Shown here piece after piece: positions 5,911 through 28,467 of a stretch of 47,209 bases of DNA; the stretch's first letter is position 1, and each line of letters opens with the position of its first letter. The stretch spans positions 1-47,209 of the forward strand of contig JAIESQ010000018.1 in the NCBI GenBank assembly GCA_019745975.1, in the 5' to 3' direction. The position numbers and the translations under genes were made by a program. The notes below the pieces were generated by a model. The model was not told the DNA's origin, searched no databases, and saw only the letters and a list, made by a program, of their open reading frames with translations. The DNA comes from Pirellulales bacterium. Lineage in GTDB: Bacteria > Planctomycetota > Planctomycetia > Pirellulales > JAEUIK01.

Positions 5911-6963
<1,053 letters not shown>

Positions 6964-10330: not shown

Positions 10331-12936
10331 AGCGACTCGGCATGACGGCGCTGGCCGCGATCGCCACGCTGGTGATCGGCGGTCTGATGCTCGTGGGGAG
10401 TGTGGAGGCCCAAGACTCGTCGCCCGCGGTGGATCAACCGAGCAAGGCGGCGACCGCGACTGCGACTTCATCTTTGAGTGCGGCGACGCCGACCGACACG
10501 ACCGATCGGACGTTTTTCGAGTTTGGCCGCATTCAATCGCGCGCCGATTGGGTGGCGCCGGTGCTGGTGGCGATTGCGCTAGTGGCGTTCGTCGTCTGGC
10601 TGTATCGCCGCGACGCCGTCGAGCAGGGACTGCCGCTACGCATCTTGCTGACGACGCTGCGCGCGGCAGTCATCGTAGCGCTGGTGGTGATTTGGCTGCA
10701 GCCGCAATGGCGCACCGAGCGCGATGTCACGACGCCGTCGCGCGTGCTGTTGTTGTGCGACACCAGCTTAAGCATGGGGTTAGCCGACGAGCAGTTTCCT
10801 TCATCCCCCGCCGGTCCGCCGCGAGCAGACCAGGTGATCCGCGCCTTGAAAGAAGGCGAACTTCTCGCGCGGTTGCGGGCGACGCACGATGTCGTCGTGG
10901 CCGGCTTCGATCAGCAACTCGCGGCCGTGGCGACGCTCCCTAAGCTGACGGAAGTAGCCGCCAACGATGCCGAAACCGCGACGTCGGCCAGCGCCGCTGG
11001 GGCTGATGCCCAAGGAGCTCTGCCTGGTACGATCGATTGGGCCACGGCCCTGGCCCCGCGCGGCGCCGAGACGCGCCTCGGCCAATCGCTGCGCGATCTG
11101 TTATACGACGAGCGCGCCAACCCGCTGGCCGGCGTAGCGGTGCTCACCGATGGCGGGCAGAATGCTGGCGTGGGGATCGGGCCTGCCATGGCGCTGGCCC
11201 ACGAGCTCGGCATTGCGTTGCATGCGGTGGGTCTCGGCTCCGACCGGCAGCCCACGAACGTCCGTGTCAGCGATCTGGTCGCGCCGGCACGAGCTTTCCC
11301 CGGCGACAGCTACACGGTCACCGGTTACGTGCAAGCGCAAGGCCTGGGTGGACGAACGATTCAGGTTGAGCTCTACTCGCGTCCGCTGGCCGAGGGAGCG
11401 GCGGCCAACCCCAGCGATCCTGGCGCGCTGGCCGCGGCGCAGCAGGTCACCCTGGGCGCCGACGGCGAAGTCGTGTCGGTCAAGTTCGAGCTCACGCCGG
11501 CCGAACCGGGTCGCGAAACGCTGCGACTGCGGATCGCCGCGCCCCCCGACGACAGCAACCCCAACGACAACGAGCAGCAAGTCGATTTGGAGATCGTTTC
11601 GCACAAGACGCGCGTGCTGCTGCTGGCTAGCGGCCCCACCCGCGAATACTGCTTCCTGCACACGCAACTTCATCGCGACCAGAATATGGTCGTCGACATT
11701 CTGTTGCAGACGGCGCAACCAGGCATCTCGCAAGAGGCCAACAAGATTCTGGACGAGTTCCCAGCCACGCGCGAAGAGCTCGACGCCTACGACTGCATCG
11801 TGGCCTTCGATCCCGATTGGCAGCAGCTCGATCGCCAGCAGGTCGAGCTGCTCGAGAAATGGGTCGGCGAACAGGCCGGCGGCTTGATCGTCGTCCCCGG
11901 CCCGGTTTTCGGACAGTCGTGGCCCGAGGGGCCCGCGCTGGCCAAGCTGCGTGATTTGTATCCGGTCGAGTTCGCGCATCGCTTCGCCGCGCTCGAAGCC
12001 ACGCGCTACCAATCGGCCGAACCGTGGGCGCTCGATTTCACGCGCGAGGGGCTGGAAGCCGACTTTTTGTGGCTCGGCGACTCGGCGACGAGCAGCAGCG
12101 CTGCCTGGAGCAGTTTTCCTGGGGTGTATGGTTATTTGTCGGTGCACGGGCCGAAGCCGGGCGCTACCGTGTATGCTCGCTTTTCCGATCCGCGCACGTC
12201 AGTGGGCGGAGAGCTGCCGCCGTTTTTGGTTGGGCAGTTCTACGGCTCAGGGCGGGTGTTCTATCTCGGCAGCGGCGAGCTATGGCGGTTGCGGAGTATC
12301 GACGCTGCGTATTTCGAGCAGGTGTACACGAAGTTAATTCGCCACGTCTCGCAGGGGCGGCTGTTGCGCGGCTCCAGCCGCGGCGTGTTGCTGGTCGAAC
12401 GCGATCGCTACCTCGTCGGTCAGACTGTGGCGGTCCGCGCGCAACTCACCAACGCGCAGCTCGAGCCACTCGTGGCCGACAGCGTGACGCTCGATGTTGG
12501 CCTGGCCGACCAGTCGAATCTGCAGGTCAAGCTGCTGCCCGATCCAACGCGCGCCGGAGCGTTCGCCGGTGAGTTCGTGGTGCGCACCGAGGGTCCCTGC
12601 CGGCTGGAGTTGCTCGTGCCCGACAGCCTCGATGAGCGGCTGACCAAGCGCATTCAGGTTCGCGTGCCCGATCTCGAGCGCGAAAGCCCGCAGCGGAACG
12701 ACACGCTGTTGGGCGAGCTCGCGCGCGAAACAGGGGGCATTTACTATGTCGGCCTGCCGGCAGCGCTGGGGAGCGGAGCGCAGCCAGCGCTGTGGGACGC
12801 GCTCCCGAATCGCAGCCGCACGCTGACGGTGTCGGACATCCCCCGGCCGTTGTGGGATAACGTGTATACGCTGGCATTTTTGTGTGGTTGTTTGAGCCTT
12901 GAATGGCTCGTGCGGCGATTGCGGAAACTCGCTTAG
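10327..12936 (+). CDS. Membrane vWA/glutamine-amidotransferase-like protein
   Basis: 869 aa from the ATG at 10327 (AGGAGG at 10315-10320, spacing 6). It has an N-terminal signal or anchor (about 7-28), two TM segments (about 76-95 and 103-121), then a vWA domain with MIDAS start LLLCDTSLSMG and later acidic site VAVLTDGGQNAG. A beta domain follows (about 310-420), and then a class-I glutamine-amidotransferase-like fold around the segment ending GLIVVPGPVFGQSW. A C-terminal TM segment (VYTLAFLCGCLSLEWLV) ends it. No Cys-His-Glu amidotransferase triad is evident, as is usual for these vWA-linked versions. It is paralogous in plan to the preceding gene. Both MIDAS sites look intact, so metal-dependent binding is plausible. 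Confidence 0.87.
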   Translation: MKRLGMTALAAIATLVIGGLMLVGSVEAQDSSPAVDQPSKAATATATSSLSAATPTDTTDRTFFEFGRIQSRADWVAPVLVAIALVAFVVWLYRRDAVEQGLPLRILLTTLRAAVIVALVVIWLQPQWRTERDVTTPSRVLLLCDTSLSMGLADEQFPSSPAGPPRADQVIRALKEGELLARLRATHDVVVAGFDQQLAAVATLPKLTEVAANDAETATSASAAGADAQGALPGTIDWATALAPRGAETRLGQSLRDLLYDERANPLAGVAVLTDGGQNAGVGIGPAMALAHELGIALHAVGLGSDRQPTNVRVSDLVAPARAFPGDSYTVTGYVQAQGLGGRTIQVELYSRPLAEGAAANPSDPGALAAAQQVTLGADGEVVSVKFELTPAEPGRETLRLRIAAPPDDSNPNDNEQQVDLEIVSHKTRVLLLASGPTREYCFLHTQLHRDQNMVVDILLQTAQPGISQEANKILDEFPATREELDAYDCIVAFDPDWQQLDRQQVELLEKWVGEQAGGLIVVPGPVFGQSWPEGPALAKLRDLYPVEFAHRFAALEATRYQSAEPWALDFTREGLEADFLWLGDSATSSSAAWSSFPGVYGYLSVHGPKPGATVYARFSDPRTSVGGELPPFLVGQFYGSGRVFYLGSGELWRLRSIDAAYFEQVYTKLIRHVSQGRLLRGSSRGVLLVERDRYLVGQTVAVRAQLTNAQLEPLVADSVTLDVGLADQSNLQVKLLPDPTRAGAFAGEFVVRTEGPCRLELLVPDSLDERLTKRIQVRVPDLERESPQRNDTLLGELARETGGIYYVGLPAALGSGAQPALWDALPNRSRTLTVSDIPRPLWDNVYTLAFLCGCLSLEWLVRRLRKLA

Positions 12937-12973: not shown

Positions 12974-15331
12974 ATGGCCAGTGCAGCGAATAGGAACCTG
13001 CCGGGCAGCTTGCCTGCCGAGGTCACGGCCTTGCTGGTCGCCTTGCGGCGACGAGTGCGGCGCTATTTGTGGACCGCGGGCCTGGCGGCGCTCTTGGCGG
13101 CCGCTGCGGCGGCGTTCTGGGTCAGCCTGGCGCTCGATTGGTTCTTCGAGATGCCGGCCGCACTGCGCTTGCTGGCGGTACTGGCGGCGGCCGGCGCGAT
13201 CGGCTGGGTGGCCTTCGAGTTCTTGTGGCGGCGGGCCCTTGTTTCGCTGTCGGACCGCAGCCTAGCGTTGGTCCTGGAGCGGCAGTTTCCCGGTTTCGGC
13301 GATCGCTTGCTGACGATCGTCGATCCGGCGGTGCGGCCCGATGCAGAGGCTGCCCCGTATGCCGTGGAACTGTTAAGGGCCACGGCCGCCGATACGGCGC
13401 TGGCGGCCCGGCACGTCGATCTGGATCGGGTGTTCAATCCTTGGCCGCTGGTGCGCAGCGTACTGGTCGGCACAGCGCTAGCGGTTTCCGTCGCGGCGCT
13501 AGTGGTCGTGCACCCAGCGATCGCGCACATCTGGATGCGTCGAGCACTATTACTTCAGTCGGACTTGTATCCGCGGCGCACGCGGTTGGCGATCGACGGA
13601 TTCGCAGATGGCCGAGCCAAAGTCGCGCGCGGCAGTTCGTTCAATATCGTCGTCATGGCCGCCACGTCGCATGAAGTGCCAACAACCGTACAGGTGACTT
13701 ACCGCGCGGCCGATGGCTCGCGCCGCCGCCGCTACATGACGCAGGAAGGTCGAGCCGAACGGGGGCGCGACCCGTTCCAGCGCTTTACCTACACGTTCGA
13801 ACAGGTCGACGAGTCGCTGCGCTTCGATGTGATCGGCGGTGACGACCGCATCCGCAACCTGCGCCTCGACGTAGTCGAAGTGCCAACGATCGACGTCGCG
13901 CAAACGGTGCTCGATTGCGAGTTTCCGCCGTACACCGGCCGCGTGTCGCGGGCCCTGCCGGTGACCGGTGTCGTGCAGTTGCCGCGCGGCACGCGGGTGC
14001 GCGTGCGGGCGACGGCCACCAAACCGCTGGTCGAAGCGCGGGTCGCGGGCATCGGCGAGGCCGAAACTGCTCCGATCGCTGGCGGCGACTCGGCGCACAA
14101 GCCGGCAGCGGAGGGCACGAGCAAAGCACCACCCGAGTCCGCGACGTCGGCCCCGTGCGTCATCGCGCCTACGGCGGATGACCCGCGGCGATTGGTGTTC
14201 GACGCCGGCACGCTCGATGCGAACCAGACCGTCATCGTGACTTTGCACGACACCGATGGCATCGAAAGCCGCGAACCGTGGCGGCTCGTGCTCGCCGTGG
14301 TGCCTGACGAAGTTCCGCTGGTTAACGTGCGGTTGCGCGGTATTGGCCCGGCGATCACGCCACAACCGCGGCTTCCGCTGGTTGGCGATGTTCACGACGA
14401 CTACGCGCTGGAGCGCGTCTGGTGGGCCTATGGGATCACAGCCGACAAGCTTGCCGAGCGAGACACTGCTCGGCCGGCGCCTGGCCAAGGTGATCTGACA
14501 GTCGACGACGCCTTGGACGCCAAAGAGCTGGCGCTCGAGCCGGGGCAAACCTTGCTGGTCGAGGTTCGCGCACGCGACAACTGCGCCCTGGCCGGCGGGC
14601 CCAACATCGGCGTTTCCGATCGCTTCAGCCTGGAAGTCGTCACGCCCGACCGCCTGCGGGCGATGCTCGAAGCCCGTGAACTGAACCTGCGGCGACGCTA
14701 CGAACAACTGATCGAAGAGGTGACCGGCACGCGCGACGGACTGGCGCGGCTGGAGCTCGTAACCGAACCGGCGACCAGTCCCACGGCTGAGCGCAAATCG
14801 CCCGCGGAAGGTGCGGCGCCGGCTGCCGACGATGCAGCGCCGGCCACGCGACCCGCTTCGGGCGAAGAGCAACTTTCGGCGAACAAGCTCCGCGTCGAAC
14901 GCGCCATGCAGAACAGTCGCAAGAACGCGGACGAAACCGCGGGCGTGGCCGCTTCGTTCGAAGATCTCCACGACGAATTGGTCAACAATCGCATCGATAC
15001 GCCGGAACTGAAGTCGCGTTTGAAGGAAGGGATTGCCGATCCGCTGCGCGTCGTGGCGACCGTGCAGTTCCCGCTGCTTGATGAGCGGTTGACCGCGCTC
15101 ATCGCGGCGCTGGGCGATCCGGCCAGTGGCCCGCCGGCGTTGCTTGCGGCGCAGCAGCAGCTCGACGTGATCCTGGTCGAGATGCAGCAGGTGCTGGCCA
15201 AGATGATGGAGATCGAAACGTTCAACGAGGTGGTCGATCAATTGCGGGCGATCATCGAGGCACAGCAGAAGCTCAATGAACGGACCAAGGATGCCCGACG
15301 TCGCAAAGTACGCGACTTGCTCGAGGATTAG
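12974..15331 (+). CDS. Large membrane protein with coiled-coil C terminus (DUF4175-like plan)
   Basis: 785 aa. The first 175 residues hold three TM segments (about 32-58, 65-85, 158-180). A long predicted periplasmic region with Ig-like beta stretches follows, then an Ala/Pro-rich linker at about 600-635, then charged helices with coiled-coil character to the end (ending RRRKVRDLLED). N-terminal TM hairpins, beta region and terminal coiled coil resemble the DUF4175/TIGR02302 family of alphaproteobacteria. In that family a Q/G-rich coiled-coil region is part of the same chain, while here it seems to be a separate protein (next gene). The family assignment is from architecture only. It is separated by 37 bp from the upstream gene; a TACAAT hexamer at about 12961 is present without a convincing -35 box. 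Confidence 0.75.
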   Translation: MASAANRNLPGSLPAEVTALLVALRRRVRRYLWTAGLAALLAAAAAAFWVSLALDWFFEMPAALRLLAVLAAAGAIGWVAFEFLWRRALVSLSDRSLALVLERQFPGFGDRLLTIVDPAVRPDAEAAPYAVELLRATAADTALAARHVDLDRVFNPWPLVRSVLVGTALAVSVAALVVVHPAIAHIWMRRALLLQSDLYPRRTRLAIDGFADGRAKVARGSSFNIVVMAATSHEVPTTVQVTYRAADGSRRRRYMTQEGRAERGRDPFQRFTYTFEQVDESLRFDVIGGDDRIRNLRLDVVEVPTIDVAQTVLDCEFPPYTGRVSRALPVTGVVQLPRGTRVRVRATATKPLVEARVAGIGEAETAPIAGGDSAHKPAAEGTSKAPPESATSAPCVIAPTADDPRRLVFDAGTLDANQTVIVTLHDTDGIESREPWRLVLAVVPDEVPLVNVRLRGIGPAITPQPRLPLVGDVHDDYALERVWWAYGITADKLAERDTARPAPGQGDLTVDDALDAKELALEPGQTLLVEVRARDNCALAGGPNIGVSDRFSLEVVTPDRLRAMLEARELNLRRRYEQLIEEVTGTRDGLARLELVTEPATSPTAERKSPAEGAAPAADDAAPATRPASGEEQLSANKLRVERAMQNSRKNADETAGVAASFEDLHDELVNNRIDTPELKSRLKEGIADPLRVVATVQFPLLDERLTALIAALGDPASGPPALLAAQQQLDVILVEMQQVLAKMMEIETFNEVVDQLRAIIEAQQKLNERTKDARRRKVRDLLED

Positions 15332-15358: not shown

Positions 15359-17376
<2,018 letters not shown>

Positions 17377-17380
<4 letters not shown>

Positions 17381-18543
17381 CGCTGAACCACTCGCACAAG
17401 CGATGCGGTCGCTGGATCGCCCTGGGCGCTGGGCTTGCAGTCGCCCTGTTGGCATGGGCCCCATCGCCTGCCGGCGCCGACGATGGTTTGATCGACCCGT
17501 TGGCCAAGCAACCGACGTTGGCCGCGCCAGCGCCTACGGTGGTTCGTGAGCTGGCCCTGCAGTGGCTGGAGTTGCAAGGCCCTAGCGACGAAGTTCGCAG
17601 CGCGGCGCTGGCTTTGTGGGCCGACGTGGCCGAAGCCGCCCGGAATGCCCCGGCGGCTGAAGACCATCTCGGCGCTGCCGAAGACCGACGGCCGCCGTCG
17701 CTGGCCGCCAGCATGCTACTGGAGCGTTTGGCGGCCACGTTCGCGCTGGTCGACGAGCGGGCCGCGGCGCTGGTTGATCTTTGCTCGAAGCCGCGGCCAC
17801 TTGCGCCGTTGAACGAGCAGACTTGGCTGTTCGATCCAGAGACACCTTCGCTGGTGAGCAACAACTTGCGCTTGCTCTACGGCCGTTGGTTGGCGCAAGA
17901 AAGCCTGTACGACGAAGCTCGCGGGCAACTAGCTGAACTCGGCCCGCATCTGGTGGTCGATCCGGCGACGCTGTTGTTCTACCAGGGAGTCGTCTTTCAT
18001 CGGCTACTCGAGAAAGAGCCTGGCCTGCGGGCACTGGAGCGGCTCGATCACGACGTGCTCAATCCGCCTGAGCGTTATCGGGCGTTGGCCGGGATTCTCG
18101 TGCAGGACCTGCGCGAGCTGAAAGACGATTCGCTCGATCACATCGCGCGGCGGATGGGAGATATTCGCCGCCGGCTCGGATTGGGTCGCCCTGGGCCTAA
18201 GACGCGCGAAGTCGAAGATGGCGTGATCGCGTCGCTGGACAAAATGATCGAAGAGCTCGAGGAGCAAGCGCGTCAGCAACAGCAGCAGCAACAACAATCG
18301 CAAGGTGGAGGCGGCGCGGCGCCGAGCAGCCCTGCTCCCGACAGCGGCATCTTCGGCGGCAGCGGGCGGGGAGAGACCAACCGCCGCGATTTGGGAAATA
18401 CCGACGGTTGGGGTGAGTTGCCTCCCAAGGAACGGCAAGAGGCGATGCAACAGATCGGCAAGGACTTTCCGGCCCATTACCGCGACGTCGTCGAGCAGTT
18501 TTTCCGCAAGCTCGCTGGCGAGAGCGCCGGCGAAGGAGAATAG
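17377..18543 (+). CDS. Secreted helical protein with poly-Gln tract
   Basis: 388 aa. It begins with a signal peptide (WIALGAGLAVALLAWAPSPAGA, about 13-34). The mature region is alpha-helical, with TPR-like character in EQTWLFDPETPSLVSNNLRL through the following 100 residues. The C-terminal third holds a coiled-coil segment running into a run of eight Gln and a Gly-rich stretch, then a short conserved-looking end (GWGELPPKERQEAMQQIGKD) that resembles the C-terminal helix of several planctomycete secreted proteins. It overlaps the upstream coiled-coil gene by 4 bp and lies 3 bp before the next gene. It is not recognised as an enzyme; a scaffold in the same envelope complex is inferred. Confidence 0.78.
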
Positions 18544-18546
18544 CGT

Positions 18547-19782
18547 GTGACGAGTCTCGTGCTGATTTGCGCGGCGGTGCTCGCCGCCAATCTGGAAGTC
18601 GAGCTGCAGACCGTCGCCGGCGAGTCGCAGCGCGGCGAGCTGGTGGCCATTTCGACCGATGAAATCACCTTGGCCACGACCGATGGCCAGCGCCGCTGGC
18701 CGCTCGTCGACGTGTTGGATATCGCCAGCGCCAAAGCGCCAGCCCCACAGGGCCCCCCGGGAGTGCTGGTGGCGCTGCGTGACGGCTCGCGCGTGCGCGC
18801 AACGAACTATACGACGTCAAGCGATGTGGCCCAGATCGAGTTGGTCGACGGCGCGAAGCTGTCGCTGCCGATCGCCGCGGTGCACTGGGTGCGTTGGGAG
18901 CCGGCGCGAGCCGGCGAGGGCGTGGCGGCCGGCGAGGGCGGCGCCGCCGGGCCAAGTGACAACGACTGGCAGCAATTCGTCGAACGAGCGACCGAGGCCG
19001 ATTTGCTAGTCGTGCGCAAGAAGGACGAAGTCGACTCGGTCGATGGCCAGATCGGCGACGTCGGAGCCGAAACGGTGGCGCTGGCGTTCGACGACGAGCG
19101 ACTCGACGTCAATCGCAAGAAGATCGTCGGCCTAATCTATTATCGAGCCCAAGATGCCGCGCCCGCCGCGCCGCTGGCCAAGTTGCAAACGGCCGACGGC
19201 TCGGTCTGGGCCGCCAAGAACTTGACGCTCGCGGAGGCCGGCTTCGCGCTCGAAACCACGGCGGGCGCAAAGGTTGACGTGCCGGTTGCAGCGCTGGTCC
19301 GCATCGACTTTTCGCAGGGGAAGGTTTTGTATCTCAGCGACCTGGAGTGGGACGCGGCGCAATCGCAGCGCACCCCGTATTTTGGTCCGCCGATGCCGTT
19401 GGATGCGGCCGTCGACCCCTATGCCCCGCAGCGCGATCGCGCCTTCGAGGGAGGCGAGCTGACGCTGGGTCGTAAGACCTTTCGCAAGGGGCTCGCGCTG
19501 CACAGCCGCACCCGGCTGGTGTTTCGGTTGCCCGAGGACTACCGCCGGCTGACAGCGGTCGTGGGGATCGACGATCGGTTGAGCGATCAAGGAAACGTGA
19601 AATTAGAAATCGTGGGGGACGAGAAAACGCTATTGTCGGCTGTCGTCAAAGGTGGCGACCCACCGCTGCCGCTGGAACTGGATGTCAGCGGAGTGCGGCG
19701 TCTGACGATCACGGTCGACTTTGGCGATGCTCAGGACGTGGCCGATCATCTCGACCTGTGCGATTTGAGGATTATCAAATGA
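18547..19782 (+). CDS. NPCBM/NEW2 domain protein
   Basis: 411 aa from a GTG at 18547 (AAGGAG at 18533-18538, spacing 8). A short hydrophobic N terminus (LVLICAAVLAANLEVEL) suggests export. Two SH3-like or PilZ-like beta repeats (about 15-100 and about 145-260) share the pattern 'gelvais.deitla...rrWplvdV.di'. The C-terminal part (about 275-411) is a good match to the NPCBM/NEW2 domain, a carbohydrate-binding-like fold (KTFRKGLALHSRTRLVFRLP, VVGIDDRLSDQGNVKLEIVGD). Such domains bind sugars at the cell surface in planctomycetes and elsewhere. The stop codon overlaps the HtrA start by 4 bp. Confidence 0.87.
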   Translation: MTSLVLICAAVLAANLEVELQTVAGESQRGELVAISTDEITLATTDGQRRWPLVDVLDIASAKAPAPQGPPGVLVALRDGSRVRATNYTTSSDVAQIELVDGAKLSLPIAAVHWVRWEPARAGEGVAAGEGGAAGPSDNDWQQFVERATEADLLVVRKKDEVDSVDGQIGDVGAETVALAFDDERLDVNRKKIVGLIYYRAQDAAPAAPLAKLQTADGSVWAAKNLTLAEAGFALETTAGAKVDVPVAALVRIDFSQGKVLYLSDLEWDAAQSQRTPYFGPPMPLDAAVDPYAPQRDRAFEGGELTLGRKTFRKGLALHSRTRLVFRLPEDYRRLTAVVGIDDRLSDQGNVKLEIVGDEKTLLSAVVKGGDPPLPLELDVSGVRRLTITVDFGDAQDVADHLDLCDLRIIK

Positions 19783-21791
19783 CCGTCCGCCCTGCGAGGC
19801 AATCTTCGTTCACTTGCGTATCGCGCCGTGGTTTGCCACTGGCCGCGCTCGCCGTGGCGTGGCTCGCATCGCCCGCCATGGCGCAGGAACAACCGCTCGA
19901 TCGGGCGGTTCCGGCGACGGTTGCCGAAGCGGAGCGCGCGCGGATCGAGGTGATGCAGAAGGCCAGCCCGGCCGTGATCGCGATCCTCAACGCCGACGGC
20001 GGCGGGGGTGGTTCGGGCGTGATCATTTCGGCCGACGGCTATGCGCTGACGAACTTCCACGTCTCGAGCGGGGCCGGCCTGTCGATGAAATGCGGTCTGC
20101 CCGACGGCACGCTCTCCGATGCCGTGATCGTTGGCATCGATCCGACGGGAGACGTGGCCTTGATCAAACTCCTCTCGCGCGCCGAATATCCGGCGGCCGT
20201 GATGGGCGATAGCGACAGCGTGCAGGTCGGCGATTGGGCGTTTGCGATGGGCAATCCGTTCTTGCTGGCGACCGACTTCACCCCCACGACGACCTACGGC
20301 ATCATCTCGGGCATCCATCGGTATCAGTATCCCTCGGGCACGATCCTCGAATACGCCGACTGCCTGCAGACCGACGCGTCGATCAACCCTGGCAACTCGG
20401 GAGGCCCGCTGTTTAACGCGCGCGGCGAGTTGATTGGCATCAACGGCCGCGGCTCGTTCGAGAAACGCGGACGGGTGAACGTGGGCGTGGCCTACGCGAT
20501 CTCGATCAATCAGATCAAGAACTTTCTGGGGCATCTGAAGAGCGGCCGGGTCGTCGACCACGCCACGCTCGGGGCGCGCTTGTCGACGAATCTCGATGGC
20601 CGCGTGATCGTCGTCGACGTGCTGGAAGATTCCGACGCGTACCGGCGCGGATTGCGCTATGGCGACGAAGTGGTGAGCTTCGCCGGCCGACCGATCGCCT
20701 CGGTCAATGCCTTCAAGAACGTGCTGGGGATTTTCCCTCAAGGTTGGCGTGTGCCGCTGGTGTATCGCCGCGGCGACGCCACCGAGCGGATTCTGGTCCG
20801 ACTTGAAGGAGTGCATCGCACCGGCGAGCTTTGGGAAAAGGTCGCTTCGACGCTCGCCGATCCCGAAGCCAAGCCAGCCGCTGAACCGGGCGAGCACCAG
20901 CACGAAGAGGACAAGCCGGCGGAGGAAACGCCCCCGGACGAGGCCGCTCCCGCGGATCGCCCGGCGAACGAAGCACCCGACGACGCCAAGCCCGAAGAGA
21001 ACCAGCCACAGGGTGAAAAGCCCGCCGATGCGCAGCCTGATGAGAATAAGCCTGAAGGCGCCGATCCGGCGGACAAGAATCCACCGGGCGAAAAGCCGAG
21101 TCGGGCTCGTCCGCTGCCTGGCCGTCCGCGGTTGCAGCGCATGGGGCGGCCGAAGCCGCCGATGGCCGCGATCGCGCGGCAGCACTACGAAGGGCGCGTT
21201 GGTTACGCCAACTACTGGTTCAATCGGCAGCATCAAGAGCGATTGCGCAAAGCGCTAGTGGCCAGCGGTGACTTCACTCCGCTGCGGGGACTTTGGACAC
21301 TCAAAGGTGATCTGGCGCCGCATGGCGATGCCGAGTTCAAGCTCGATGACAAGCAAACGCAAGCCGTCTTGCCCGGCGGCCCGCTGCGGCTGTTGGCGAC
21401 CGACGACTTCACGAGCTTGCTGGACCCGGTCGACAGCGGTGGATTACTCGTGGCATTGCACCTGTGGCGGCAGATGCTCGTCTCGGGCTTCGAGAGCTTC
21501 GACGAGGTGCACTACCTCGGCACGGCGCCGCTCGATGGCCACAAGGGCTTGTTCGACGTGCTGGTCGCCACGCACCGCGGCGTCGAGTGCCACTTTTACT
21601 TCGACAGCGAGGACGGGCGGCTGGCAGCACTCGAGATGTACGCGGACGATGCCGCCGACCCCTGCGAATTGTACTTCGGCGAGCTTGTCGAGGTCGCTGG
21701 CCGACTTTGTCCCAGCCGGATCGAAGCGCGGTATGCGGGCGAAGTGTACGGCGTGTTCAAGTTCTCGCACATAGAGTTATTGGGTCCGTAA
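19779..21791 (+). CDS. HtrA/DegP-like serine protease with PDZ domain, intact triad
   Basis: 670 aa from ATG 19779, preferred over the GTG at 19758 because it overlaps the upstream stop by 4 bp and leaves a normal signal peptide (GLPLAALAVAWLASPAMAQ). The trypsin-like domain spans about 55-250 with the full triad: His94 (ALTNFHV), Asp125 (DPTGDVALIKL) and Ser207 (NPGNSGGPL). A PDZ domain lies at about 260-345. A long Glu/Pro/Asp/Lys-rich linker follows (about 365-445), then a separate folded C-terminal domain (about 470-670) that I do not recognise. It probably acts in the periplasm in protein quality control or processing. The next two genes encode related proteins that have lost the triad. 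Confidence 0.92.
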   Translation: MTVRPARQSSFTCVSRRGLPLAALAVAWLASPAMAQEQPLDRAVPATVAEAERARIEVMQKASPAVIAILNADGGGGGSGVIISADGYALTNFHVSSGAGLSMKCGLPDGTLSDAVIVGIDPTGDVALIKLLSRAEYPAAVMGDSDSVQVGDWAFAMGNPFLLATDFTPTTTYGIISGIHRYQYPSGTILEYADCLQTDASINPGNSGGPLFNARGELIGINGRGSFEKRGRVNVGVAYAISINQIKNFLGHLKSGRVVDHATLGARLSTNLDGRVIVVDVLEDSDAYRRGLRYGDEVVSFAGRPIASVNAFKNVLGIFPQGWRVPLVYRRGDATERILVRLEGVHRTGELWEKVASTLADPEAKPAAEPGEHQHEEDKPAEETPPDEAAPADRPANEAPDDAKPEENQPQGEKPADAQPDENKPEGADPADKNPPGEKPSRARPLPGRPRLQRMGRPKPPMAAIARQHYEGRVGYANYWFNRQHQERLRKALVASGDFTPLRGLWTLKGDLAPHGDAEFKLDDKQTQAVLPGGPLRLLATDDFTSLLDPVDSGGLLVALHLWRQMLVSGFESFDEVHYLGTAPLDGHKGLFDVLVATHRGVECHFYFDSEDGRLAALEMYADDAADPCELYFGELVEVAGRLCPSRIEARYAGEVYGVFKFSHIELLGP

Positions 21792-21811: not shown

Positions 21812-22906
21812 ATGATGGATTACCCTTTGTTCGTGCCGAGAGCACGCTGCCTGTCGCGGGCGCGGTGCCGTGTTGGCGTGGTCGTCGCTTGCGCCGTCGC
21901 GCTCGTCGCGACTAGCGGCGGCGCTATCCGCGTTGCTGCGGCAGATTGGCATGCGACGATCGCCGGAGCGCAGCAAAAATCGGTCAAGATCCACGGAGCC
22001 GGCGGGTTCCGCGGCCTCGAAGCGTATCAAAGCGGCATCTTGATTTCGGCCGAGGGTCACGTGCTCACGCTCTGGAGCTACGTGCTCGACACCGAAGACG
22101 TCAGCGTGACGCTCGACGACGGCCGCAAGTTCACCGCCAAACTGCTGGGGGCCGATCCCAAGCTGGAGATCGCGCTATTGAAAATCGACGCGGCCGACTT
22201 GTCCCACTTCGAATTGACGGAGGCCGCCGCGGCCAGCATCGGGCAACGCGTGTTGGCCCTGAGCAACGTGTTCGGGATCGCCACCGGCGAGGAGGCCGTC
22301 AGCGTGCAACATGGCCACGTCGCGGCCGCCACATCGCTGGCGGCGCATCGCGGGGTCTTCGAGAGCACCTATCGCGGCCCCGTCTACATTCTCGATGCCA
22401 TGACGAACAATCCCGGCTCGGCGGGCGGCGCGCTCGTGGCACTCGATGGCCGCTTGATAGGCTTGCTGGGCAAGGAACTGCGCGATAGCGCGCACAATGT
22501 CTGGCTCAACTACGCCATGCCAGTCTCGGCCATCGAGGAGACCGTTCGCCAAATGCTGGCCGGGCGATTCAAGCCTTCGACAGCGGACGAACCGGCGACA
22601 GCCGTGGCCAATAGCTGGAGTCTGGAAGCTTTGGGCGTTGTGCTGGTGCCCGACCTGGTACCGCGCACACCACCGTTCATCGATACGTTGCGCCGCGGCA
22701 GCCCGGCAGAACAAGCGGGGCTGCTCCCCGACGATCTGGTGCTTTACATCAACAACCGGCTCGTCCCGTCGGCGCAAGCGCTGCGCGCCGAGTTATCGCA
22801 AATCGACCAAGGGGACGAGCTCCGGTTGACCGTGATGCGCCACTCCGAGCTGATTGAAGTTACGCTGCGAGTTGGCGCCGCGCCGAGCCAGGGAGGTCAA
22901 CCTTGA
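21812..22906 (+). CDS. HtrA-fold pseudoprotease with PDZ domain (triad lost)
   Basis: 364 aa from the tandem ATGs at 21812/21815, with a signal-like hydrophobic segment at about 21-44. The trypsin-like fold aligns well with the preceding HtrA. However, the His position is Ser89 (VLTLWSYV instead of ALTNFHV), the Asp position is Glu119 (DPKLEIALLKI), and the nucleophile Ser is Ala204 (NNPGSAGGAL). A PDZ domain (about 272-355) with GSPAEQAGLLPDDLVLYIN is well preserved. The fold and PDZ are intact and there are no frameshifts, so this is a conserved non-catalytic protein rather than a decaying gene. It presumably binds peptides or regulates the active HtrA. No good ribosome-binding site is visible 5' of the start. 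Confidence 0.88.
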   Translation: MMDYPLFVPRARCLSRARCRVGVVVACAVALVATSGGAIRVAAADWHATIAGAQQKSVKIHGAGGFRGLEAYQSGILISAEGHVLTLWSYVLDTEDVSVTLDDGRKFTAKLLGADPKLEIALLKIDAADLSHFELTEAAAASIGQRVLALSNVFGIATGEEAVSVQHGHVAAATSLAAHRGVFESTYRGPVYILDAMTNNPGSAGGALVALDGRLIGLLGKELRDSAHNVWLNYAMPVSAIEETVRQMLAGRFKPSTADEPATAVANSWSLEALGVVLVPDLVPRTPPFIDTLRRGSPAEQAGLLPDDLVLYINNRLVPSAQALRAELSQIDQGDELRLTVMRHSELIEVTLRVGAAPSQGGQP

Positions 22907-24897
22907 GGGGAGTGACTACTCACAAACGACGTCGTGCGTTAGCGCGGCTGGCGACTTTGCTCACGCTGCTGGCTGGGAGTTCCGGCTGGGTGCTGGCAGA
23001 CGACAGTCTCGAAGAGCTCGAGCAAGCGGCGCTGGCCGCGGCGGTCGATCGCGTCGCCCCCAGCGTGGTGCGCATCGACACCGTGGGTGGGCGCGAGCGC
23101 GTCGGCGAAACGGCGGTTGGCCCTGGCCCCACGACGGGTCTGATCGTCAGCGAAGACGGTTTCATTGTGTCGAGCGCGTTTGGCTTCGCACAACAGCCGG
23201 CTTCGATTTTGGTAACGTTGCCCGATGGCGCGCGTGCTCGCGCGCGGCTGATCGCCGCCGATCGCAGTCGGCAGTTGGTGTTGCTGAAAGTCGACGGTGC
23301 GAAGAGGCTTCCCGTATCGGCGCCGGCTCCACTGGCCGACGTGCGAGTGGGCGCCTGGGCGATCGCCGTGGGGCGCACCTACGAAGCAGCGCGGCCGAAT
23401 GTCTCGATCGGCATCGTTAGCGCGCTGGGCCGTATCTGGGGTAAGGCCGTGCAGACCGACGCCAAGATCTCGCCCGTGAACTACGGTGGTCCGTTGGTCG
23501 ACGTGGCCGGCCGGGTGATCGGCATTCTGGTGCCGATGTCGCCGAGCGAGTCGGGCGAAGCGGCGGGGGTCGATTGGTACGACTCGGGGATTGGCTTCGC
23601 CGTGCCGCTCGAGCACGTGCTTAGCGTGTTGCCGCGGCTGCGAGCGGGCGAAACGCTCGAGCCCGGTGTATTAGGCGTGAATCTCGTCGAAGGGAGCATG
23701 TTCAGCCAGCCCGCGGAATTGGCCGCGGTGCGGCCGAACTCACCTGCCTACAAGGCCGGGCTGCAAGCGGGCGACCGCATCGTCGAGATTGACGGCACAT
23801 CGATCGAGCGGCAAACGCAGTTCAAGCGTCAGCTTTTGCCGCGTTATGCCGGCGACAAGGTGCGGCTCACGATCGCGCGCGGCGAGGAGCGCTTCGATCG
23901 CGAGATCGAGCTGATCGCCAAGCTCGAGCCCTATGCGCATCCGTTTCTGGGAGTGCTGCCGCGTCGCGATCCAGCGGCCGGTGATGCCGTCGCCGCCGGA
24001 GTGCGCGTGAGGTATGTCTTTGCGGAAAGCGCGGCGGCCAAGGCCGGAATCAAAGCGGGAGACGTTTTGGTAGGGCTCGCCGGAAAAGATGTGACCGACC
24101 TGGCGTCGGTGCGGTTGTTGTTGCAGCAGGTTGAGATCGGCCAGCAAGTCGAGGTTGCCGTTCGTCGCGGTGAAGAAACCTTGGAGTTGAAAGTCGAGCC
24201 TGTGGCGGTTTCGGATGCGGTGCCCGACGATCTGCCCCCCGCGCGCGAGCCGCGCCCGGCCTTTGTCGGCGAGCGACCGGCCACCGGCAAGTTTGCGCTG
24301 GAACTGCCCGAGCACGCCAACAAGGCGTCGGTCTTCGTTCCCGGCAACTACGATCCCGCGGTCGCCTACGGACTGCTCGTGTGGCTGCCGGCCTCGGCCG
24401 AAGACGCCGCGGCCGAAGCCCAGTTCGAGCGCTGGCAAGCGCAAGCCGAAGCGCTCGATCTGATTGTTCTCGTGCCACGCCCCGGGCAGCCGGCCGGTTG
24501 GGCGCAAAGCGATCTGGAGTTCATCGGCCACGCCATGGAGCGGCTCGTGGCCGATTATCGCATCGATCGAGCGCGCATCGCCGTCGGTGGAGCCGGCACC
24601 GGCGGCAGCGTGGCCTTCGTCGTCGCGTCCGCGCAGCGCCCGCTAGTGCGGGGCGTGATCGCCCTGGAAGCGCCGCCGGCCGGGCGCATGCCGGAGAACG
24701 AGCCCATCCATCCGCTGGCCATCTATTCGGCCAACAGCAAGGGGGCGACCAACGCGCGCGCGATCGAGGCGGGCGCCGAGCGCCTACGGGCGGCGCGGTT
24801 TCCGGTCACGCGGCGTGAGCTCGCCAAGCCAGAGGGCCTGAGCGACGACGAGCACGCACATCTGGAGCGCTGGCTCGATAGCCTCGACCGCTTCTAG
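22903..24897 (+). CDS. Pseudoprotease, two PDZ domains and hydrolase-like domain, all catalytic residues missing
   Basis: 664 aa from a TTG at 22903 (GGGAGG at 22891-22896, overlap TTGA with the upstream stop); a GTG at 22912 is the alternative. A signal peptide runs to about 32 (LLAGSSGWVLA). The trypsin-like domain (about 45-230) has Phe93 for His, Gln124 for Asp and Tyr194 for Ser (ISPVNYGGPL). Two PDZ domains follow at about 235-325 and 330-430. The last 190 residues resemble an alpha/beta hydrolase of the esterase/PHB-depolymerase type, but the nucleophile motif GxSxGG reads GAGTGG (Ser replaced by Gly). The protein keeps folds but not enzymes, which suggests a binding or sensing hub. 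It is the last gene of the + strand train. Confidence 0.85.
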   Translation: MRGVTTHKRRRALARLATLLTLLAGSSGWVLADDSLEELEQAALAAAVDRVAPSVVRIDTVGGRERVGETAVGPGPTTGLIVSEDGFIVSSAFGFAQQPASILVTLPDGARARARLIAADRSRQLVLLKVDGAKRLPVSAPAPLADVRVGAWAIAVGRTYEAARPNVSIGIVSALGRIWGKAVQTDAKISPVNYGGPLVDVAGRVIGILVPMSPSESGEAAGVDWYDSGIGFAVPLEHVLSVLPRLRAGETLEPGVLGVNLVEGSMFSQPAELAAVRPNSPAYKAGLQAGDRIVEIDGTSIERQTQFKRQLLPRYAGDKVRLTIARGEERFDREIELIAKLEPYAHPFLGVLPRRDPAAGDAVAAGVRVRYVFAESAAAKAGIKAGDVLVGLAGKDVTDLASVRLLLQQVEIGQQVEVAVRRGEETLELKVEPVAVSDAVPDDLPPAREPRPAFVGERPATGKFALELPEHANKASVFVPGNYDPAVAYGLLVWLPASAEDAAAEAQFERWQAQAEALDLIVLVPRPGQPAGWAQSDLEFIGHAMERLVADYRIDRARIAVGGAGTGGSVAFVVASAQRPLVRGVIALEAPPAGRMPENEPIHPLAIYSANSKGATNARAIEAGAERLRAARFPVTRRELAKPEGLSDDEHAHLERWLDSLDRF

Positions 24898-24998: not shown

Positions 24999-26309
24999 CT
25001 ACGCGCCACTCGGCTTCGCGCGGTCGCGGCGGCTGAACACACGCTGGCAATCTTCGAGCGCTGCGGCCAGCTTCTCGACTTCCGCCGGCGTGTTGTAGAA
25101 GTAGAAGCTGGCCCGGCACGACGCCGTCACGCCGAGCTTCTTGTGCAGCGGCATCGCGCAGTGGTGCCCTGCCCGCACGGCCACGCCGGCGCGATCGAGC
25201 AACTGCGCGATATCGTGCGCGTGAATGCGCTCGTGCACGAAGCTGACGATGCCAGCTTTGTGCGCGGGTTCTGGGCCAAGGAAGCGAATGCCGCCGATAT
25301 TGGCCAGCCGCTTGTGGGCCAACTCGGCGAGTTGGCGCTCGTACTGGCCGATGCGGTCGAGACCAACCTGGTTCAGATAATCGATCGCCGCTCCCAAACC
25401 AATCGCTGGCACGATCGGCGGCGTGCCCGCCTCGAACTTGGCGGGCAACTCGGCCGGCTCAAAGCCATCGGTGCGCACGCGGCTGATCATGCTACCTCCG
25501 CCCATGAAAGGGGGCATCGCATCCAAGAGTTCGCGCCGCCCATAAAGCACGCCGACGCCCGAGGGGCCGAGCATCTTGTGGCCACTGAAGGCCAGAAAGT
25601 CGCAGCCTAGCGCCTGCAGGTTGGTCACCTCGTGCGGCACGCTTTGCGCGGCGTCGACCAGCACTAGCGCTCCAGTGGCGTGGGCACGGCGAACAAGTTC
25701 GGCCACTGGGTTGATCGTTCCCAGCACGTTCGAAATGGCCGTCACGGCGACCAGCCGCGTGCGCGAGCCAAGCAAACGGTCGAACTCGTCGAGATCGAGC
25801 AAGCCGGCGGCTGTGATTGGCGCCCAACGGATCGTGCAGCCGCTGCGCTCGGCCAGTTGCTGCCAGGGAACGATGTTCGAGTGGTGCTCCATTTCGGTGA
25901 GCAGAATCTCGTCGCCGGCGCGCAGGTTGGCGTCGCCCCAACTGCGGGCGACCAGGTTAATGCTCTCGGTCGTACCGCGGGTGAAGATGATCTCCTCGCG
26001 GTGGGCAGCGCCGATAAAGGCCTGCACGCGGTCGCGGGCCTGCTCAAACAGATCGGTGCTGTGATCGCTCAGCCAATGGATGCCGCGATGCACGTTGGCG
26101 TACGAGTGCTCGTAAACGTCGACGATACACTGGATGACCTGCCGTGGGTGCTGCGTGCTGGCGGCGTTGTCGAGATAGACCAAGGGCGCCCCGCTCGGCG
26201 AGCTGGTCGCGAGGATCGGAAAATCGGCCCGCCAGCGCGAAGCATCGAAGTCCGCCCCGATTGGCGTCGGGACACCATCGCTCAGCGAGCTGACGTTTTG
26301 GGCGGACAT
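24999..26309 (-). CDS. sufS: Cysteine desulfurase SufS
   Basis: 436 aa from the ATG at 26309; the longer upstream frame has no family similarity. This is a PLP-dependent class-V aminotransferase that removes sulfur from cysteine for Fe-S cluster assembly. PLP lysine Lys245 lies in FSGHKMLGP, the active-site loop Cys398 in TASCRASFYFYNT, and the segments LVYLDNAASTQHP and AGHHCAMPL are typical of SufS. The start overlaps the 3' end of sufU by 28 bp, so the pair is co-transcribed and probably coupled. No sufB, sufC or sufD is present in the window. Confidence 0.95.
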   Translation of the reverse strand: MSAQNVSSLSDGVPTPIGADFDASRWRADFPILATSSPSGAPLVYLDNAASTQHPRQVIQCIVDVYEHSYANVHRGIHWLSDHSTDLFEQARDRVQAFIGAAHREEIIFTRGTTESINLVARSWGDANLRAGDEILLTEMEHHSNIVPWQQLAERSGCTIRWAPITAAGLLDLDEFDRLLGSRTRLVAVTAISNVLGTINPVAELVRRAHATGALVLVDAAQSVPHEVTNLQALGCDFLAFSGHKMLGPSGVGVLYGRRELLDAMPPFMGGGSMISRVRTDGFEPAELPAKFEAGTPPIVPAIGLGAAIDYLNQVGLDRIGQYERQLAELAHKRLANIGGIRFLGPEPAHKAGIVSFVHERIHAHDIAQLLDRAGVAVRAGHHCAMPLHKKLGVTASCRASFYFYNTPAEVEKLAAALEDCQRVFSRRDRAKPSGA

Positions 26310-26722
26310 GGCGCGGCGGCTTGATCCTGAGATGCTTTGGCGGCGGACGCCGGCGCGGCCAGCGCTCCTTGCAACACCCGCCAACATAGCAGACAGCACT
26401 TTTGTCGATTGGGAGTGAGCTTGGCGCCGAACAGGTCGAGCATTTGCTGGGCCGACATGGCGCGGGCTTCTTCGAGCGTGCGGCCGTCGAGGTGCTCGGT
26501 CAGCATCGAAGCGGCCGCCTGGCTGATGCAGCAGCCGTCGCCGTTGAACCAGGCCTCGCGAATGTGACCCTGCGCGTCGACATCCAGCTCCATGCGCACG
26601 ACGTCGCCGCACAGCGGGTTGTCGGCCTCGTGGGCGTGCGTTGCCCGGCCGCAACTACCGCGATGGTAGGGGCTTTCGTAGTGGTCGAGGATGCGTTCCT
26701 GATAGAGCTCGTCGTCGGCCAT
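26282..26722 (-). CDS. sufU: SufU-type Fe-S assembly / sulfur-acceptor protein
   Basis: 146 aa from the ATG at 26722. SufU accepts sulfur from SufS and relays it to cluster scaffolds. The three ligand Cys sites are present: NPLCGD, NGDGCCISQAAAS and RQKCCLLCWRVL. The N terminus DDELYQERILDHYESPYHRG is characteristic of the family. The C terminus (about 120-146) is Ala/Pro/Lys-rich and includes the stretch overlapping the sufS start. The promoter must lie in 26723-26925, shared with a divergent gene. Confidence 0.93.
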   Translation of the reverse strand: MADDELYQERILDHYESPYHRGSCGRATHAHEADNPLCGDVVRMELDVDAQGHIREAWFNGDGCCISQAAASMLTEHLDGRTLEEARAMSAQQMLDLFGAKLTPNRQKCCLLCWRVLQGALAAPASAAKASQDQAAAPCPPKTSAR

Positions 26723-26925
26723 CGGTCGTCGCGGAAGCGTCTTAAAGGGACGGAAATCGAGGCGCAAAGGGCACGGTAGTTTTGTCAGATAACGCTGACT
26801 TAAACATAGTTTATGGCACCAGTGGCCGGCGAACAAGGTTGCCTTGCCTGCCAGCTCAGGGAACCCGGGAAGGACCGACGGCGTCGAACCACTATAACCA
26901 AAAACGGCGCGGAGATTGCCCAACC

Positions 26926-28467
26926 TTGTGCCGCATCTACCTCGTGACCGCGACTGTCTTTGCCACAAGTGCGACTGGCCTGGCCAGCTCGCCCGGCGAC
27001 GCTGCCACGGCGGAAGTGCGCAAGCACGAGATCGTGCAGGCCGTGTGGCAGTTAGCCGTCGACGCCGCTGAATTCCGGGATTTTCGGCGCGTCGCCGGCG
27101 CGCTGGAATTCGTCGCGCTTTGGGAGAACACGCACCAGCAAGAGATCGCCAAGCGAAACCTGCCGTTTGTGCATCTCCTGTTGATGCAACCACGCGACGT
27201 GGAAACGCGCATCCGGTTCGCGCAGGAATTCTGGGGTTTCATCCCGCCGGCGATGGGGACTGGCTCGTTATCAGCGCGTCAGTTCTTGATCGAGTCACTG
27301 CCACTGACGAAGTCATCGAAACAACAACATGTGGTAAGCTCGCATATTCTAATGTATGCGTTGGCAGCCGGAGATTTGCAGGTCGCCCCCCAGGATATGG
27401 ATCGAATCATCGACGCCGCAGGAAGCGACTCTTGGGAGGCCGCCAACGCTCGTCGAGAACTGGCACGAGCATTCATTACCGTGCGCGAGTTCGACCGGGC
27501 CCGCGAGCTTCTGGAAGCGACGATCGACTCGCAGGCTCCGCGGGATGAAATCGGCCTGGCACGAGTGCAATTGGCCGGGGTTTTCGAGAGTCTGTCGGAC
27601 AATCAGCGGATGGTTGCGCAGCTCGAAGCTGTGGTGAAAATGGATGATACCCAGCTACCGCGGCTCGGCTACGCGAAGTCGGCCGCCAGCGAACTGCTTG
27701 GCAAATACTACTTGCGCACCGGTGACGCCGAGAGGGCACTGCAGCGTTTTAGCGAGTGGGTGCCGTGCCATGACTGCGGCACCTGCATACAGCAAGCGCA
27801 ATTTCGCAAGGACATGTACATCAGCGAGTGTCTGGTCGCTCTGGGACGTGACGACGAGGCACTGCGCGACCACCTGATGCCGCGACTGGGCGATTCCGCG
27901 ATCGCGGCTACAGACTATCGGATCGCGCCGTTGGTTGTGAAATGCTCTGAGGATCGCGGTGCCCTGCGGGACTTAATTCATCAAATGAATCGGATCTCCG
28001 ACGGCCCGAATTCGCCGGCCGGGGCTGTTCGACAGCTAGCATTGATTCGGCTTTGGAAGCAGCAGGGCAATCTCACGGAATTGATTGCCCAATTACGTTC
28101 TGACGGGCGCACCACCCCCGACCGACGCGAACCGGAACGACAATGGCAGGCTTTCGCGGCAGCCAAGGCCCTCGCCGAATTGGGTGGTATTGAGTTTCAC
28201 GAGCTAAGAGAGCGCTTCGAACGGCTGCGCGTGATCAGGCATAACCGCAATCCCGACCACTTTGCGGAAGTCAGCGGCCGGCTGTTTTGGACCCTATACG
28301 CGATTGGTTTGTCGCGCGCGCCTGATGCTCGCACCTATCTCCAGCAACTCGTCGATAAATCGCGCACCGAGCGGTTTGACCTTGGCCTGGGCATTTCCGT
28401 CGATTTCGTTGAATCGCTGCTATTGCTCGAGACGCCGAACACCTCGACTTTACAGAACCACGATTGA
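26926..28467 (+). CDS. Secreted helical-repeat (TPR-like) hypothetical protein
   Basis: The frame is open from 26782 (TTG) to 28467. I prefer a start at TTG 26926 (GGAG at 26911-26914), because it gives a signal-peptide-like start (RIYLVTATVFATSATGLASS) and leaves promoter space for divergent sufU. That gives 513 aa; from 26782 it would be 561. The body is an alpha-solenoid with TPR-like periodicity (for example EFDRARELLEATIDSQAPRD and LGKYYLRTGDAERALQRFSE). It contains a CxxCxxC motif (PCHDCGTCIQQ) that could bind metal or form disulfides. It is a lone gene; function not recognised. Base composition is slightly lower in GC than its neighbours. Confidence 0.7.
   Translation: MCRIYLVTATVFATSATGLASSPGDAATAEVRKHEIVQAVWQLAVDAAEFRDFRRVAGALEFVALWENTHQQEIAKRNLPFVHLLLMQPRDVETRIRFAQEFWGFIPPAMGTGSLSARQFLIESLPLTKSSKQQHVVSSHILMYALAAGDLQVAPQDMDRIIDAAGSDSWEAANARRELARAFITVREFDRARELLEATIDSQAPRDEIGLARVQLAGVFESLSDNQRMVAQLEAVVKMDDTQLPRLGYAKSAASELLGKYYLRTGDAERALQRFSEWVPCHDCGTCIQQAQFRKDMYISECLVALGRDDEALRDHLMPRLGDSAIAATDYRIAPLVVKCSEDRGALRDLIHQMNRISDGPNSPAGAVRQLALIRLWKQQGNLTELIAQLRSDGRTTPDRREPERQWQAFAAAKALAELGGIEFHELRERFERLRVIRHNRNPDHFAEVSGRLFWTLYAIGLSRAPDARTYLQQLVDKSRTERFDLGLGISVDFVESLLLLETPNTSTLQNHD

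Follow-up and report, generated by a model that had tools for sequence, protein, structure and literature searches.

An HtrA-type protease and two conserved pseudoproteases, its predicted partners, at the end of a MoxR/vWA gene run in Planctomycetota

Why should a bacterium keep two proteins with a protease fold and no catalytic triad directly behind an intact protease? The question is raised by a stretch of 47,209 nucleotides from a Pirellulales bacterium (assembly GCA_019745975.1, contig JAIESQ010000018.1; hereafter the window), which is one contig (C153) of a source genome of 6.98 Mb in 204 contigs. Three consecutive genes on its forward strand, labelled A, B, and C here, encode an HtrA-type serine protease of 670 amino acids with a PDZ domain and a C-terminal domain of its own (A, 19779–21791), a pseudoprotease of 364 amino acids with one PDZ domain (B, 21812–22906), and a second pseudoprotease of 664 amino acids with two PDZ domains and an esterase-like domain (C, 22903–24897). 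A and B are separated by 20 bases, and the listed TTG start of C at 22903 overlaps the stop of B by 4 bases. An earlier note on this DNA had read the trio as a protease with two regulatory or adaptor pseudo-subunits, whose loss of catalysis looked selected and which might form mixed trimers. The reading preferred here, held with little more than even confidence and drawn from sequence comparison, is that the three proteins make up a single, obligate HtrA module outside the cytoplasm, with B and C as predicted dedicated regulatory or scaffold subunits of A, likeliest in mixed oligomers.

The triad residues of A, His94 (codon 20058–20060), Asp125 (20151–20153), and Ser207 (20397–20399), stand in the motifs ALTNF-H94-V, PTG-D125-VAL, and PGN-S207-GG. 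At the same places B reads Ser89 (22076–22078), Glu119 (22166–22168), and Ala204 (22421–22423), in LTLW-S89-YVL, PKL-E119-IAL, and PGS-A204-GG, and C reads Phe93 (23179–23181), Gln124 (23272–23274), and Tyr194 (23482–23484), in VSSA-F93-GF, RSR-Q124-LVL, and PVN-Y194-GG. The nine residues named in the earlier note are exact by translation, and a joint alignment puts them in the His, Asp, and Ser columns of Escherichia coli DegP, DegQ, and DegS, with conserved motifs flanking these columns on either side. In a pairwise HMMER alignment, a one-residue gap slides near Ser89 of B and Tyr90 may pair with His105 of DegP; neither residue is His. The neighboring residues of the fold are conserved, as the note had stated, and Trypsin_2 (PF13365) is covered over nearly its full length, above the Pfam cut-off, by A (1.6e-29), B (1.2e-19), and C (4.4e-19). 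PDZ_2 matches follow once in A (7.9e-7; residues 264–340, 20568–20798), once in B (2.1e-8; residues 294–353, 22691–22870), and twice in C (5.5e-26 over two stretches; residues 257–336 and about 365–432, 23671–24198), the second PDZ domain of C also being matched by NCBIfam and both being placed by the model.

With an intact triad in Trypsin_2 and a PDZ domain behind it, A has the make-up of an active HtrA-type protease, which the broken triads deny to B and C. The profile score of A places it among HtrA-type proteases that do not belong to the curated Do subfamily (214 bits against the TIGR02037 cut-off of 416.2), and B (125 bits) and C (194 bits) also fall below 416. The C-terminal end of A (21027–21779) is a conserved domain of its own behind a low-complexity Pro/Glu/Lys linker; some of its residues are kept in orthologues, and it has no Pfam match. 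Pfam, structure prediction, and fold comparison agree that B and C both combine the HtrA protease fold with PDZ. Their models have a mean predicted local distance difference test (pLDDT) score of 84.0 and 91.3, respectively, and DegQ (4ynn) is the best fold match of both among the solved chains compared, with Z 25.6, 279 aligned residues, and a root-mean-square deviation (rmsd) of 13.2 for B and Z 27.5, 365 aligned residues, and an rmsd of 7.8 for C. The rmsd of 13.2 suggests that the protease and PDZ domains of the B model are differently placed relative to each other than in DegQ. The protease domain of MamO (5hma) is also in the fold list of B (Z 22.7, 186 aligned residues, rmsd 2.5).

Relatives of the trio were compared within Planctomycetota. 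An order search with B matched 133 of 146 genomes at E ≤ 1e-25; the order set comprises 100 loci, each at most about 14 kb long, giving with the window 101 rows for A and for B, and a further 40 loci from a class draw and 20 from a phylum draw bring the loci to 160. Pooled over the three sets there are 158 B rows and 152 C rows. A named set of 80 loci shares organisms with the order set and was kept out of the pooled counts. Open frames were taken from stop to stop, and some rows include residues upstream of the true start; at one class locus (L283), A is broken across two frames, which were left unmended and count as two A rows.

A holds His-Asp-Ser in 97 of 101 order rows (the window included; the remaining four gapped), in 37 of 38 class rows (one gapped), in all 19 phylum rows, and in 70 of 76 rows of the named set, where the other six are truncated by contig ends or N. 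No ungapped A row has a broken triad, whereas at the 160 loci beyond the window no B or C row has a whole one. The His column of B is Ser throughout the order set (101/101), and its Ser column holds Ala in 81 rows, Pro in 12, Thr in four, Gln in two, and Val and Gly in one each; none of 40 class rows and none of 17 phylum rows has an intact triad. Pooled, His never occurs in the His column of B (0/158) and Ser occurs once in the Ser column (1/158), in a row reading TDS. Three B domains fused to A (L317, L322, L328), counted apart from the 158 rows, read S/G/Q, D or H/G/Q, and T/L/Y, none of them intact. In C, the Ser column is Tyr in 98 and Val in one of 99 order rows, and Tyr in all 33 class and all 20 phylum rows (151/152 pooled), while the His column of the order set is mostly Phe (71 of 99) or Tyr (14). 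At the oxyanion place, B has Gly in 158 of 158 rows and C in 0 of 152 (Ala 54, Val 34, Asn 31, others 33), with Tyr two residues on. The same substitutions occur in an isolate, Blastopirellula marina DSM 3645 (L183), one of the best named matches of B, which come from Pirellulales and other Planctomycetota.

The recurrence of these substitutions in orthologues had been proposed beforehand as a check on the earlier note, and it is borne out, with no intact triad in a B or C slot, the three fused B domains included. The orthologue columns of B and C yield no conserved His, Asp, or Ser that could take the catalytic place from a shifted position. No His, Ser, or Cys reaches a conservation of at least 95% in B, and among these three residues only Ser173 and Ser190 do so in C, which has no such His. 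The catalytic loss in B and C is supported as selected because it is conserved, the triad never being intact in 158 B and 152 C rows, and on this point the earlier note is upheld by the alignments.

The three genes are also kept together. The succession A, B, C on a single strand recurs at 98 of the 100 order loci (one of these has A and B fused), at 33 of 40 loci of the class set and 19 of 20 of the phylum set, and at 74 of the 80 loci of the named set; the two order loci without C are L138, which ends 253 bases past B, and L071. For co-occurrence, alignments of A, B, and C were each run against one set of 198 genomes of the class at E ≤ 1e-60, ≤ 1e-50, and ≤ 1e-70, respectively. These cut-offs were chosen once the separation of true from background scores had been seen, and genomes without a printed row were assigned by elimination over the 198 handles. 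A, B, and C occur in 147, 149, and 147 genomes, respectively; 146 genomes hold the full trio, 49 hold no member of it, and three are partial cases. One of these (G291) has A and a B that ends 437 bases before the contig end, where C would come next; another (G295) has C and a B found only in part; the third (G158) has a divergent B alone. Outside the class, B is clearly present (E ≤ 2e-49) in 25 of the 246 genomes drawn from the phylum, all 25 with a clear C (E ≤ 2e-72), and one genome (G476) has a clear C only. Three genomes (G250, G160, G163) have the three genes far apart or on separate contigs, with all of them present. The absences are concentrated, 45 of 49 falling in a single family (f21); in the genomes that the class draw holds from this family, for example G146, G151, and G155, clear A, B, and C are absent and the module seems to have been lost as a whole.

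A and B share a single open frame in 4 of the 160 loci, namely one of 100 in the order set (L120), none of 40 in the class set, and three of 20 in the phylum set (L317, L322, L328), and in none of the 80 loci of the overlapping named set. A gene fusion usually means that the two parts act together and in the same compartment. In genus g65 of family f6, beside the genome that carries L120 (G114), three genomes (G102, G130, G145) encode B within open frames 929 to 966 amino acids long, which may be the same A–B fusion; another genome of the genus (G126) has no such long B frame. Because of the near-perfect co-occurrence, the retention of all three genes where they are scattered, and the A–B fusions, the picture of one protease with two dedicated non-catalytic partners, as first put forward in the earlier note, is supported, and selection for a live protease with two unlike dead partners is well supported. 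The natural fusions and the genomes with scattered genes allow comparative and experimental tests of the role of a dead protease subunit.

B and C differ in kind as pseudoproteases, to judge by their conserved residues. In DegS, an activation cluster of Arg178 (loop L3), Gln191, and Thr167 together with Tyr162, Leu164, and Pro161 of the neighboring subunit transmits the PDZ signal both inside a subunit and from one to the next, and the DegP counterparts include Arg187 and Gln200, according to passages of the review PMC11642142. A keeps the corresponding Arg181 (20319–20321) in 154 of 154 and Gln197 (20367–20369) in 155 of 155 ungapped rows, and C keeps Arg177 (23431–23433) and Gln184 (23452–23454) in 152 of 152 rows each. 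The counterparts of DegS Arg178 and Gln191 are missing from most B rows: the Arg place holds Arg in only 23 of 158 and otherwise Pro, Lys, Ser, or others, and in 154 of 158 rows the Gln place is aliphatic (Val, Ile, or Leu). The aromatic residue of loop LD is retained in B (Phe in 119 and Tyr in 38 of 158 rows). C thus looks like a locked subunit with its signaling wires still present, and B like one without either.

C also carries a domain that B lacks. Its final 200 residues or so (24265–24894) match the NCBIfam PHA-depolymerase profile NF050058 at 1.7e-8, under the cut-off of 150 bits, and are modeled as alternating strands and helices; the call of an esterase-like, alpha/beta-hydrolase-like domain combines this below-cut-off match with the secondary structure of the model. 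In fold searches with C, the 50 matches listed by Foldseek and those in the VIA-align table are all HtrA-type chains. The domain is common in the class and rare beyond it, occurring in 83 of 99 rows of the order set, 30 of 33 of the class set, and 1 of 20 of the phylum set. The place of the GxSxG nucleophile is Gly565 in the window (24595–24597), and Ser occurs in the nucleophile column in none of 56 aligned sequences and in 3 of the 114 rows having the domain in the broader sets; the structure alignment of C holds 55 full-length rows out of 74 of the named set and the window. The esterase-like domain would therefore appear to be a second dead enzyme domain of C, with its nucleophile almost always lost.

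In the mechanism proposed for the module, A would be its sole protease, and B and C, arisen by duplication in the HtrA branch of A and each having lost catalysis separately, would join A in mixed HtrA oligomers, where their PDZ domains may bring or sense clients. C would cut nothing itself, its dead site being locked by Tyr, and its Arg/Gln pair, through which, in DegS, the active site of the neighboring subunit receives the PDZ signal, could relay activation to A. B, without this pair, may act as a tether, a receiver, or a brake. Regulation of A in mixed oligomers is the best explanation on the indirect basis of the co-occurrence, the fusions, and the conserved relay residues; we infer physical assembly and the direction of regulation from the sequences, and the extracytoplasmic place from N-terminal hydrophobic helices. 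A more specific arrangement is possible and rather doubtful, a signaling heterotrimer in which A cuts, C only senses and, by its intact Arg/Gln relay and Tyr-plugged site, passes the signal of a PDZ or esterase-fold ligand across the subunit border, and B, blind to the relay, sets the resting state. If true, it would be a bacterial protease whose active and dead protomers divide the labor, an old feature of Planctomycetota with ties to a MoxR/vWA chaperone operon. C, with allosteric wiring and no catalysis, would make inter-subunit signaling in HtrA trimers directly testable.

Several observations weigh against the module and the inactivity of its partners. A quarter of the class genomes surveyed (49 of 198) live without the module, the dispersal of the genes in three genomes shows that co-translation is not needed, and B and C could work together yet apart from A. 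Asp is retained at the Asp place of B in 43 of 158 rows, and His stands at the His place of C in 2 of 152 rows, both in the order set. The fused B domain of L322 has His at or beside the His place, but Gly and Gln at the other two.

The nearest precedent for such a module is MamE/MamO of magnetotactic bacteria. As described in passages of PMC4794232, MamO is needed, without catalysis of its own, for MamE-dependent proteolysis and binds metal with its dead protease domain, and MamO proteins carry a bulky Trp in loop L1 and have no Gly at position 193. Inactive HtrA copies arose repeatedly in magnetotactic bacteria, and the authors infer selective pressure for live/dead pairing (PMC4794232, same passages). 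The planctomycete genes likewise place an active HtrA-family protease and an inactive paralogue in one gene region, and C shares with MamO a non-Gly residue at the oxyanion place, with Tyr at the Ser place. Unlike MamE/MamO, they comprise two pseudo-paralogues per protease, which form their own clades and occur in several classes of Planctomycetota, and C, unlike MamO, bears two PDZ domains and the putative dead esterase-like domain. Membership in the two families themselves was rejected, A scoring 118.9 bits against the MamE cut-off of 800 (NF040960) and B and C scoring 41.2 and 27 bits against the MamO cut-off of 800 (NF040961). Live/dead HtrA pairing is known from magnetosome islands, and A-B-C would extend it far more widely, to a protease whose dead partners are two and distinct from each other.

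Among the rivals to an oligomeric module, the one that survives best is tentative: B and C may be repurposed binding proteins in the manner of MamO (for a metal, a ligand, or a client, or as a chaperone or holdase), acting in the same pathway as A and neither assembling with it nor regulating it. The metal-binding dead domain of MamO (PMC4794232, in the passages cited) sets an example, the extra esterase-like domain and two PDZ domains of C would suit such a role, and G250, G160, and G163 have the three genes apart. However, A–B fusions exist, and the inter-subunit relay residues that C retains are best understood as parts of an HtrA oligomer. No His stands in the columns of B or C conserved at 95% or more, the level at which a counterpart of the metal-binding surface His pair of MamO was sought. 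It is unlikely that B, C, or both are inhibitors or decoys that poison A oligomers or keep clients away until a signal removes them. Such a role would suit the loss of the Arg/Gln pair from most B proteins, with which a mixed trimer is expected to have a broken relay, and the missing oxyanion Gly of C in 152 of 152 rows, with Tyr two residues on; yet the relay residues of C are kept without exception, and a pure poison would not need them. Remaining enzyme activity of B or C, by means of catalytic residues that are shifted or of another kind, is very improbable. The gap ambiguity at the His place of B, the single B row with Ser in the Ser column, and the His at or beside the His place of the fused L322 domain lean that way, against the want of any His, Ser, or Cys conserved at 95% or more in B, the restriction of such residues in C to Ser173 and Ser190 with no His, the Tyr that fills the Ser place of C in all but one of 152 rows, and the loss of its oxyanion Gly. 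Decaying copies or assembly errors, which might be suspected in named source genomes that are mostly metagenome-assembled, have next to no probability and are ruled out by the phylum-wide recurrence of the same substitutions, the isolate B. marina DSM 3645 included.

Other HtrA systems lie further off. The trio shares with DegP, DegQ, and DegS the protease fold and the PDZ order, and A and C share the activation-cluster residues; unlike these proteins, B and C have no triad, and A, B, and C all score under the TIGR02037 cut-off. Deg5 and Deg8 of Arabidopsis act together as hetero-oligomers. Both are HtrA paralogues of the thylakoid lumen, and their crystal structures, a trimer and a hexamer determined with Ser-to-Ala mutants, have a malformed triad in both proteins (passages of PMC3640471). 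Unlike A-B-C, Deg5 and Deg8 both have the triad residues, and there is no dead partner. A survey of microbial PDZ proteins found them abundant in planctomycetes, and its main text does not contain the words inactive or catalytic triad (PMC6411480); passages of a stress study of R. baltica report one cold-induced htrA, RB12752. No paper on a planctomycete HtrA trio was among those listed for the open-licence literature, a scope that most subscription journals fall outside.

The origin of the trio was approached with a tree of 100 protease domains from which the triad columns had been removed. A, B, and C each form one clade with support of 100/99 or better, and together they form a joint clade (99/94) apart from eight other HtrAs of the same genome and from E. 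coli DegP, DegQ, and DegS; within it, A and B are sisters (96/85) and C lies outside. The tree leaves out the Trypsin_2 loci L010, L011, and L014–L016 of the source genome, which are without the filter motif, and L017/L018 are partial. Because the tree pairs A with B and leaves C outside, two separate losses of catalysis are the simpler history, and the topology favors duplication within one HtrA branch with two such losses and disfavors a single loss common to B and C, although the branches are long and this is not proof. The source genome (G000) has 18 Trypsin_2 matches in all, several of them not of the HtrA type. One region (G000:C195:90617–93283; L008, L018) holds a candidate second pair, an intact-looking HtrA with PDZ-like repeats and, about 1.9 kb on, a degenerate Trypsin_2 protein with an open frame of 309 amino acids and GEGTP instead of GNSGG.

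Judged from conserved gene order, the A-B-C trio is the distal part of a MoxR/vWA gene run, a position that, like the difference in kind between B and C and the apparent second dead domain of C, goes beyond the claims of the earlier note. Upstream of A on the same strand, the window carries genes for a MoxR AAA ATPase (5911–6963), a DUF58 protein (7212–8129), and a BatA-type protein (7943–10330), all named by Pfam, then four genes (10195–12936, 12974–15331, 15359–17380, and 17377–18543) with nothing at the Pfam cut-off and no NCBIfam match, and directly before A a gene for an NPCBM-domain protein (18547–19782; PF08305, 3.3e-29). When 20 kb upstream of B were read in 20 genomes, the NPCBM gene recurred on the same strand in 19, DUF58 and BatA in 15 each, MoxR in 13, and the four unnamed genes in 18, 18, 17, and 16; the NPCBM gene is present in 88 of 100 order loci. 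The MoxR of the window has a weak bpMoxR match (3.6e-10).

MoxR, DUF58, and a BatA-type vWA gene in this order make up a Bat-type cluster, and the run resembles the Bat (aerotolerance) clusters of Bacteroides and Leptospira in joining MoxR to BatA-type vWA genes. In Leptospira, moxR and the bat genes share one cluster, and bat deletion led to no oxidative-stress phenotype (passages of PMC3557215). Unlike the clusters described in these passages, which mention no HtrA trio, the planctomycete run adds the NPCBM gene and A-B-C. MoxR-vWA ternary conflict systems use mostly inactive trypsin-like domains as effectors, and their VMAP type also occurs in planctomycetes, according to passages of PMC7159879. 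The run is like them in combining MoxR and vWA genes with inactive trypsin-type domains; unlike their inactive trypsin domain, which is a variable effector fused to vWA, A-B-C is a fixed, conserved HtrA-PDZ set. From this arrangement it may reasonably be proposed that the trio works with the MoxR/vWA system in the quality control of envelope proteins, and the finding would tie a gene run of the MoxR-DUF58-Bat type to extracytoplasmic proteolysis. Beyond C, on the minus strand and facing the HtrA genes, lie genes for a class-V aminotransferase of the cysteine desulfurase type and a SufU-type Fe-S scaffold (24999–27193).

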